A stretch of 64,000 nucleotides of DNA from the NCBI RefSeq assembly GCF_024138165.1, contig NZ_CP100002.1, forward strand, positions 124,001 through 188,000. Reading direction: 5' to 3'. This document shows, one piece after another, positions 18,042 to 46,725 of this stretch. A program made the translations under genes and the position numbers. Below the pieces are notes generated by a model, which had not been told where the DNA came from, did no database searches, and saw nothing but the letters and a program-made list of their open reading frames with translations. Each line of letters starts with the position of its first letter. The first letter of the stretch is position 1. Origin of the DNA: Halorussus vallis. Lineage in GTDB: Archaea; Halobacteriota; Halobacteria; Halobacteriales; Haladaptataceae.

Positions 18042-18130
18042 CACACCGGGTTTCCAGTGAAATGCGGTCGAGTGGAGTCGGAGGAAATTGGTCGAACTGG
18101 GACGTGGACACACACCGGGTTTCCAGTGAA
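18042..18130 (-). repeat. Two inverted origin repeats, left of the AT-rich element
   Basis: Exact CACACCGGGTTTCCAGTGAA at 18042-18061 and at 18111-18130, both facing away from orc1/cdc6. They are 69 bases apart (start to start). Confidence 0.85.
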
Positions 18131-18230
18131 ACGTGGTGTGAAGGTGGGTAGAGTCCGGGAGATCCGGCAGTTTTTGCCGGTAAGGCGTGGATGACAAGTC
18201 GCAGTTTTCGAGGGTGTCGTTACCTCGCCC

Positions 18231-18295
18231 ACCATACTTTTATGTAGTATGGTTACGTAAAAGTCCATTAAGTTAGTAAAAAGCAAGAAAGAAAG
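18231..18295. other. AT-rich duplex unwinding element
   Basis: About 65 bases containing ACTTTTATGTAGTATGG, AAAAGTCCATTAAGTTAG and AAAAAGCAAGAAAGAAA, in a GC-rich genome. It lies between inverted and direct origin repeats. A short hairpin (AGCCGTGAC-TT-GTCACGGCT, 18294-18313) borders its right side. Confidence 0.7.
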
Positions 18296-18472
18296 CCGTG
18301 ACTTGTCACGGCTGATTCCACGAGAAGCCGTGGCTCGTCCGTCCGGCGACGGCTCTTCGGCATGCTTCTAGTACGTGGTTGCTTCGTGCGAACTGACTTC
18401 GTTCGAATACGACCTTAACTAACTGCACTCTCGTTTCTCCTTCGCGGAACCCTCCCTACCTTCGAAACCGAT

Positions 18473-18584
18473 TTCACTGGAAACCCGGTGTGTGTGTCTC
18501 GCTCTGAGTCGAACTGCACCATCGACACAGTTCACCGGAAACGTACTGCGATTTTACGATCTCGTTCACTGGAAATCCGGTGTG
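18473..18584 (+). repeat. Direct origin repeats, right of the AT-rich element
   Basis: An exact copy at 18473-18492 and a copy with one change (AAATCCGG) at 18565-18584. A degenerate copy, TTCACCGGAAACGTACTGCG, is at 18531-18550. Confidence 0.8.
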
Positions 18585-18717
18585 CCAAACCGTCCAAAAC
18601 ATCCGTGTGAGTACCGCTACTGCTCAAAACGGCGAAACGGCTCTTATTCGGGAATGTGGGCTCAGGAACCGGGTCAGTTCGAGGAACTCCACTTTCGGCT
18701 CGCAGGGCAGCGCCTCG

Positions 18718-18737
18718 CACACCGGGTTTCCAGTGAA
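18718..18737 (-). repeat. Inverted origin repeat
   Basis: Exact CACACCGGGTTTCCAGTGAA, the only inverted copy right of the AT-rich element. Confidence 0.8.
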
Positions 18738-19000
18738 ACGTCTGCGTCCCTGAACGACACGGTGACTCCATCGCCGAGTGATTGGTGGAAGTATTGGATA
18801 ACAGATGACGGCGCCGTACCCGCCTTCGAGCGTGTCGGACTGCGACCATCCACCGTTTTTCCGTGCGTCGAAGCGATGCGTCGAATCGTTTCGCGGGACG
18901 CTAAATCGTTTCTCCGGACGCCGAATCGCCGACACCGACCGCCTTTCCGATGCGGCGAACCCTCGTTTCAACTGCACCGCCACACCCTCTCGCGACCGCT

Positions 19001-19066
19001 TTCACTGGAAACCCGGTGTGTCTGTCTTCCCCAACACTAAAGCCATTTCACTGGAAACGTGGTGTC
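19001..19066 (+). repeat. Direct origin repeats abutting orc1/cdc6
   Basis: An exact copy at 19001-19020 and TTCACTGGAAACGTGGTGTC at 19047-19066. The second ends exactly at the base before the orc1/cdc6 ATG, where initiator binding should block its own transcription. Confidence 0.85.
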
Positions 19067-20257
19067 ATGGCCGACTCCAGCGAACTTTTCTCCCGGGAGG
19101 ACCCCATCTTCGCCGACAAGGAGTTACTCGAAATCAACCACCTGCCCGACGACGGCCGCATCGTCGGGCGCGACGAGGAACTGCAGTCGCTGGCGAGCGC
19201 GCTCAATCCGGCGCTGTTCGGCCAGAGTCCGAGCAACGTCCTGGTCTACGGCAAGACCGGGACCGGAAAGTCCCTCTGCGCCAAGCACGTCTCGCGCCAG
19301 CTCGTCACCGAAGCCGAGAAGGAGGGCGTCACCGTCGGCATCGCCTACGTCGACTGCGCCCAGGACGACACCGAGACGCAGACGGTCCAGACCATCGCGA
19401 GCGCGCTGAACACGCCCGAAACCGACGTGAGCGTCCCCGACAAGGGCATCTCGACGTCGACGTACTACAAGCGGCTCTGGCGCATCCTCGACGCCGAGTA
19501 CGCCGTCGTGGTGGTCATCCTGGACGAGATCGACAAACTCGAAGACGACGCCATCCTGATGCAACTCTCGCGGGCGGGCGAGGCCGGGAAACTCCAGAAC
19601 TGCAAGCTCGGCACCATCGGCATCAGCAACAAGATAAAGTACAAAGACCGGATGGACGAGCGCGTCAAGTCGAGCCTTTGCGAGCGCGAGTTCGTCTTCC
19701 CGCCGTACGACGCCAATCAGCTCCGGGCCATCATGGACGCCCGCAGTGACGCCTTCAAAGAGGGCGTGCTGGAGGACGGCACGATTCCCAAGGCGGCCGC
19801 GCTCGCGGCGCGCGAGCACGGCGACGCCCGCAAGGCCATCGACATCCTGCGGTACGCCGGCGAGATCGCCCAGTCGCGCGAGGAGAACCTCGTCCGCGAA
19901 GACTACGTCGAGCAGGCCCGCGACCGGGCGGAGAACGACCGCTTCCGGGAACTCATCCGCGGCGCGACGCCCCACTCGAAGCACGCCCTGCGCGCGCTGG
20001 CGGTGCTCTCGCTCAACCACGACGGCGAGCAGGCGTTCCGGACGACGGCCATCTACGAGACATACGAGGTCATCTGCGACCGCGAGGGCGTCGACCCGCT
20101 GTCGACCCGCCGGGTGCGAGACCTCCTGCGCGAGCACGCCTTCCTCGACGTCATCGAGCAGGCCCGCCAGAGCGGCGGGAGCGCCGAGGGGAGCTACACC
20201 GAACACCGACTGCTGGAGGACCCCGCGGTCGTGAAGAACGTCCTCACCGAGGAGTGA
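19067..20257 (+). CDS. orc1/cdc6: Orc1/Cdc6 replication initiator
   Basis: A 396-residue AAA+ initiator that binds origin recognition boxes and loads the MCM helicase. Near the N terminus, DDGRIVGRDEELQSL is followed by Walker A VYGKTGTGKSLC (about residues 59-70) and Walker B VVVILDEIDKLED. A sensor region (IGISNKIKYKDRMD) and a C-terminal winged helix (SLNHDGEQAF ... STRRVRDLLREHAFLDVI) complete the usual architecture. The start at 19067 is chosen because codons upstream are origin repeats. The adjacent repeat touches the start codon, implying autoregulation. Confidence 0.96.
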   Translation: MADSSELFSREDPIFADKELLEINHLPDDGRIVGRDEELQSLASALNPALFGQSPSNVLVYGKTGTGKSLCAKHVSRQLVTEAEKEGVTVGIAYVDCAQDDTETQTVQTIASALNTPETDVSVPDKGISTSTYYKRLWRILDAEYAVVVVILDEIDKLEDDAILMQLSRAGEAGKLQNCKLGTIGISNKIKYKDRMDERVKSSLCEREFVFPPYDANQLRAIMDARSDAFKEGVLEDGTIPKAAALAAREHGDARKAIDILRYAGEIAQSREENLVREDYVEQARDRAENDRFRELIRGATPHSKHALRALAVLSLNHDGEQAFRTTAIYETYEVICDREGVDPLSTRRVRDLLREHAFLDVIEQARQSGGSAEGSYTEHRLLEDPAVVKNVLTEE

Positions 20258-20269
20258 CGACCCCTCGAC

Positions 20270-20323
20270 TTCACTGGAAACGCGGTGTGGTTTCGCCGTC
20301 CCGTTCACTGGAAACCCGGTGTC
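20270..20323 (+). repeat. Two origin repeats downstream of orc1/cdc6
   Basis: TTCACTGGAAACGCGGTGTG at 20270-20289 and TTCACTGGAAACCCGGTGTC at 20304-20323, in direct orientation just after the stop codon. The initiator gene is thus flanked on both sides. No gene is seen from here to 20499. Confidence 0.8.
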
Positions 20324-46616: not shown

Positions 46617-46725
46617 TTATTTTCAACCGTATTACAACCTCAACACCGCTACAACTTATATTTTTCTAACAATAATAAAAATTGAAATATACTGGGTCTG
46701 GGAGATCCTATTAGAAGCGTATTGA

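Follow-up and report, generated by a model that had tools for sequence, protein, structure and literature searches.

Replication origins adjacent to orc/cdc6 genes are a known kind in haloarchaea. In those surveyed by Wu et al. (2012; PMC3528665), as the survey's passages on origin structure describe them, the orc1 gene lies beside inverted origin recognition boxes (ORBs) placed around an AT-rich element, the boxes are specific to the neighbouring Orc family, and such origins are common on extrachromosomal replicons. The locus described here shares these features. In the passages on box sequence of that survey and of a second one (PMC4595724), a G-string is the halophile-specific end of the ORB and serves as a filter, and at Haloarcula hispanica oriC1 the G-string is essential for ORB function (PMC3936714); the boxes of the present locus have none. 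The H. hispanica oriC2-cdc6E origin with its oriC2D cluster carries boxes both 5' and 3' of the initiator gene (PMC3936714), as does the present locus. The origin is thus of a known kind, while its box variant is real and under-described; a text search of the literature with the box sequence turned up nothing relevant.

The window, that is, the whole stretch of 64,000 nucleotides that was analyzed, lies on contig C3 (239,549 bp), a secondary replicon of Halorussus vallis (genome of 5.05 Mb), and the locus occupies 142–144 kb of this contig. The window contains exactly nine copies of the repeat at three or fewer mismatches, against 0.01 expected by chance, and nine was reached by no shuffle. 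The features of the locus are as follows.

18042–18061, minus strand: ORB 1, outer left, tail GGTGTGTGTCC (mismatch scan)
18111–18130, minus strand: ORB 2, innermost left of the AT-rich element, tail GGTGTGTGTCC (mismatch scan)
18234–18293, no strand: AT-rich putative duplex-unwinding element, 27% GC (composition; also in relatives)
18473–18492, plus strand: ORB 3, innermost right of the AT-rich element, tail GGTGTGTGTGTCT (mismatch scan)
18531–18550, plus strand: degenerate tenth ORB TTCACCGGAAACGTACTGCG, 5' half and core only (sequence reading)
18565–18584, plus strand: ORB 4, one mismatch (mismatch scan)
18718–18737, minus strand: ORB 5, opposite direction (mismatch scan)
19001–19020, plus strand: ORB 6, 46 bp 5' of the start-codon box, with similar spacing in many relatives
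19032–19042, plus strand: BRE/TATA-like promoter element CAACACTAAAG of orc1 (conserved in 79 aligned loci)
19047–19066, plus strand: ORB 7, between the TATA-like element and the ATG, tail GGTGTC (scan, relatives)
19067–20257, plus strand: orc1/cdc6 initiator gene, 396 aa (profile matches, PDB match by sequence)
20270–20289, plus strand: ORB 8, 3' of orc1 (mismatch scan)
20304–20323, plus strand: ORB 9, 3' of orc1 (mismatch scan)

This arrangement agrees with the preliminary description, which had reported nine good copies on both sides of orc1/cdc6, inverted to the left of an AT-rich element and mainly direct to its right: the left-hand copies (18042 and 18111) are inverted and, right of the element, all but the one at 18718 are direct. 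The likeness of the TGGAAAC core to known origin recognition boxes, also proposed there, is supported. ORB 7 adjoins the orc1 ATG, and two copies follow the stop codon. With boxes in mutually inverted orientation on its two flanks, the AT-rich 60-mer belongs to the lowest 0.015% of the replicon in GC content; the AT-richest 60-mer of the whole window, at 46630–46689 (23% GC), lies away from the origin. Dispersal of the repeat over the genome, which had been named as an argument against an origin, was rejected, because the four weaker matches elsewhere consist of one on contig C5, within an ORF, and three that belong to copies of a single repeated chromosomal sequence. The orc1 locus on C3 is the sole such box cluster in the genome.

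The initiator gene encodes a protein with AAA+, lid and winged-helix domains, matching TIGR02928 (E = 6e-132), the Cdc6_C winged helix (E = 4e-18) and Cdc6_lid, with 2qby_A (Cdc6 homolog 1) as top PDB match by sequence. A start at 18950, giving a longer ORF, was rejected, as the conserved start is at 19067. The initiator search of the genome's contigs covered orc1 genes and returned 20 matches, part of them duplicates or halves of a single gene, and only one orc1 on C3. On contig C4, two orc1 genes (at approximately 30–40 kb and 151–161 kb) repeat at an equal spacing of approximately 121.28 kb; given this equal spacing, C4 is possibly a replicon of approximately 121 kb that was assembled twice.

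Relatives were represented by 80 fetched loci from across haloarchaeal families, with Orc1 proteins 73–84% identical to that of the window, giving 81 loci with the window included and a family box consensus of TTCACYGGAAACNNGGTGTG. A first scan, allowing three or fewer mismatches to a degenerate consensus whose pattern takes in the tail, located 593 sites: 490 upstream, 103 downstream and none within the orc1 gene. The architecture recurs in most of the 80 relatives, with boxes pointing outward from the AT-rich element: left of the AT-richest 60-mer, 252 boxes are on the minus strand and 12 on the plus strand, and to its right 49 are minus and 162 plus. As the relatives are not independent, a Fisher P value overstates the evidence for this polarity, and the stronger argument is the range of haloarchaeal families covered. 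In a first test, the AT-richest 60-mer fell within the widest adjacent minus/plus pair in only 27 of 74 loci (10.3 expected), since many relatives carry an additional inverted pair close to the gene; in a second test, it fell within the largest inter-box gap in 62 of 74 (33.6 expected). A few loci (e.g., L033, L037, and L090) have a single upstream box. In the nearest relative, Halorussus halophilus plasmid unnamed3 (2178–7833), the glmS-orc1 order is common with the window, and a second orc1 lies directly 3' of the first, where the window has an unrelated gene.

Box set and architecture support the orc1-associated origin of the preliminary description, and we conclude that the locus very probably serves as an Orc1-dependent replication origin, and most likely as the main one of C3, in which the cognate initiator gene is embedded. 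Since the architecture fits and a G-string was looked for and not found, we classify it as an archaeal Orc1-dependent origin and not as a G-string ORB origin. Orc1 would contact the TCACYGGAAAC half of the box with its winged helix and the GGTGTG(TG)n tail with its AAA+/initiator-specific motif (ISM) domain. Bound to the outward-pointing pair at 18111–18130 and 18473–18492, it would then open the AT-rich element and load MCM.

Passages in both surveys note that predicted origins of haloarchaea may be dormant (PMC4595724; PMC3528665), and Haloferax mediterranei indeed has dormant orc-adjacent origins with inverted ORBs (PMC4595724). The boxes and initiator studied here could likewise be intact while C3 normally uses a non-orc origin, the locus firing only once the main one is lost. 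We regard this as improbable, in view of the single orc1 on C3, the architecture conserved in relatives, and the observation that an orc of the window family is the only orc-like place on 14 of the 38 complete plasmids with family members. Among these 14 are pNMAG01 and pHALXA01, with one orc each; both were counted as origin-associated in PMC3528665, although its text describes ORBs as carrying a G-string. The family is present in 14 of 28 genomes of the host's taxonomic family and in 4 of 17 congeners (own genome excluded), a patchy distribution that fits plasmid carriage. Haloferax volcanii is not among the matches listed for the family. A GC-skew check, suggested in the preliminary description, gave a divided answer: all four walks along C3 turn near 134–144 kb, close to the origin, but the GC range is not significant (P = 0.61), and GC skew was rejected as proof of an origin. 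For AT the range is borderline (P = 0.057), and for purines it is significant (P = 0.0075). As the purine walk, the sole significant one, has its maximum approximately 8 kb from the origin, the skew of C3 is at most suggestive of initiation at this position.

The position of the start-codon box is strongly conserved. It lies 20–42 bp 5' of the start codon in 80 of 81 loci; among 79 aligned cases, 77 have 0–8 nt between the box and the ATG. An AAAC..T.AAG element is conserved 5–15 nt 5' of the box (79 aligned loci). In haloarchaeal promoters, the BRE and TATA box of a leaderless or short-leader gene would sit at the position of this element. Since the box is located 3' of the TATA-like element, bound Orc1 would cover the start region, and the position of ORB 7 (19047–19066) within the initiator gene's own promoter predicts that Orc1 represses its own expression. 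The retention of this box in relatives supports the autoregulation that the preliminary description had read from it.

Such a box, kept between TATA-like element and ATG in all loci but one, could also mean that the cluster is primarily autoregulatory, with the Orc1 paralogue acting as a regulator and not at an origin. A precedent is Sulfolobus Orc1-2, which is known as a regulator rather than an initiator and has a DNA element of its own (PMC9738581). We consider this explanation very unlikely here: the boxes are arranged polarly about the AT-rich element, many of them are far from the promoter, many plasmids have a family member as their only orc, and the genome offers no further box cluster as a target. 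An origin whose initiator gene may be autorepressed thus remains our preferred reading.

The promoter box also distinguishes the window family from other Orc families. In most of those sampled, a degenerate-tail box is found just 5' of the orc TATA-like element, whereas in the window family it is 3' of it; boxes of the former kind lie about −55 to −69 relative to the start of orc in L010, L012, L015, L016, L134–L136, and L143–L144. Promoter boxes may therefore be general, in two layouts. One of these loci is the canonical oriC1 of the host genome (L015, on contig C1). Like the window locus, it has two outward inverted boxes around a central region and a box near the initiator promoter, but its box is ATTCAGCGGAACGATGGGGTGGGGG, with a long G-string, and its promoter box is further from the ATG (about −55 to −64). 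The window locus does not belong to the oriC1 family, its Orc1 falling in a different clade.

Copies after the gene had been regarded as less usual. This does not hold, as one or more downstream boxes occur in 40 of 81 loci and such boxes are known for H. hispanica oriC2 and, according to the passages of the survey that deal with them, for other origins (PMC3936714; PMC3528665). The two boxes at 20270 and 20304 have an oriC2D-type placing 3' of the initiator gene, although oriC2D has eleven downstream boxes and the window two. In H. hispanica, the eleven-box cluster 3' of cdc6E lowers oriC2 activity, probably by titration (PMC3936714); by analogy, the downstream pair and the spare upstream boxes of the window may titrate Orc1. 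With just two copies in the window, and half of the relatives without any, a separate function such as regulation of the next gene is conceivable, if somewhat doubtful: the box sequence is the same, and within 500 bp of orc1 the downstream boxes of relatives mostly take the direction of the gene (85 plus, 12 minus), besides the precedent of oriC2D. We therefore favour titration as the candidate role of the pair.

The absence of a G-string is borne out in the window and beyond. None of the window copies ends in a run of Gs, the mark of an ORB in the surveys' passages on this point (PMC3528665; PMC4595724). Because the pattern of the first scan includes the tail, that scan is biased on this question; a second scan had the 5' half TCAYYGGAAAY as sole anchor, with the tail left out of the pattern. 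NNGGTGT comes next in 480 of 513 sites so found, and a run of at least four Gs occurs within the following 14 bases in 20 of 513. The extended tail GGTGTGTGTGT is found in 81% of the right innermost boxes, 46% of the left innermost boxes and 10–21% of other boxes. In place of the GGGGTGGGGG of canonical oriC1, the window family thus tends to have GGTGTGTGTGT at the two boxes that bracket its AT-rich element. The oriC1 boxes were read by hand; the de novo motif search did not recover them. The CC of CCGGTGTG is not conserved among relatives.

Comparison with the box sets of other Orc families confirmed the missing G-string but did not uphold the further proposal that the tail defines a separate specificity class. 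In the de novo motif search, GGGGTG tails were found in other Orc families (ACGACGGAAACGTGGGGTGG, TTTCACTGAAAACGAGGGGTGT, and TTTCACTCGGTTCGAGGGGTGGGG), and the GGTGTG tail is not unique to the window family: it recurs with different cores in fam2 (TTACATCCGCGACGGTGGTGTG; ..CGCGA..GGTGTG) and in L187 (TTACACTTGCGAGACGGTGTG; ..TTGCGA..GGTGTG). Because these families share the tail while their cores are unrelated, the tail marks no specificity class. The family closest by identity, a sister Orc family on plasmids (Halobellus limi, Haloarcula CBA1115, Halorussus limi, and others) whose Orc1 is 54–60% identical, resembles the window family in the layout of its boxes and also has one close to the start codon, but its box, TTACAGCGGCAACGNGGGGTG, differs in its core (CGGCAAC) and its GGGG tail (GGGGTG). 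On the Orc1 tree, the GGTGTG label requires two changes, and one change sufficed in no bootstrap tree. A first tree had placed L155, on a long branch, inside the window family; once L155 was replaced by six further sister proteins, the sister family is separate, although support for the window family against it is low (60/83). Judging from these box sequences, the core plus the 5' half is a more likely carrier of specificity than the tail. L138 belongs to another Orc family (fam4); in the flank 3' of its orc1, CGTATTGTTCTCC units form a short tandem array, and the de novo search recognized no ORB set at this locus.

In the Aeropyrum pernix structure, the G-tract is contacted by the ISM (PMC9738581), and by analogy the ISM of the window family may dock on the TG tract. 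A residue diagnostic of the GGTGTG tail was sought in the ISM. Directly before the invariant glycine, all three families with this tail have K or R, and T is the usual residue in fam8, fam3 and oriC1; two GGGGTG families (fam5 and fam6) have K at this position as well. We tentatively propose, as a possibility slightly below even, that at origin-opening boxes the AAA+/ISM docking site has changed from the G-string to the TG tract GGTGTGTGTGT, at least twice independently, in haloarchaeal Orc1 families.

The window family supplies a natural set of matched Orc1 and box variants from which the contacts between initiator and box could be assigned part by part. Its promoter box, kept in 80 of 81 loci, makes it possible to test directly whether archaeal initiators repress themselves in the manner of DnaA. 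That plasmid and second-replicon origins of a broad family lack a G-string means that both the filter and the rule need revision. If the proposed replacement by the TG tract is true, the G-string would be no general requirement of haloarchaeal initiators, and surveys demanding it would undercount origins.
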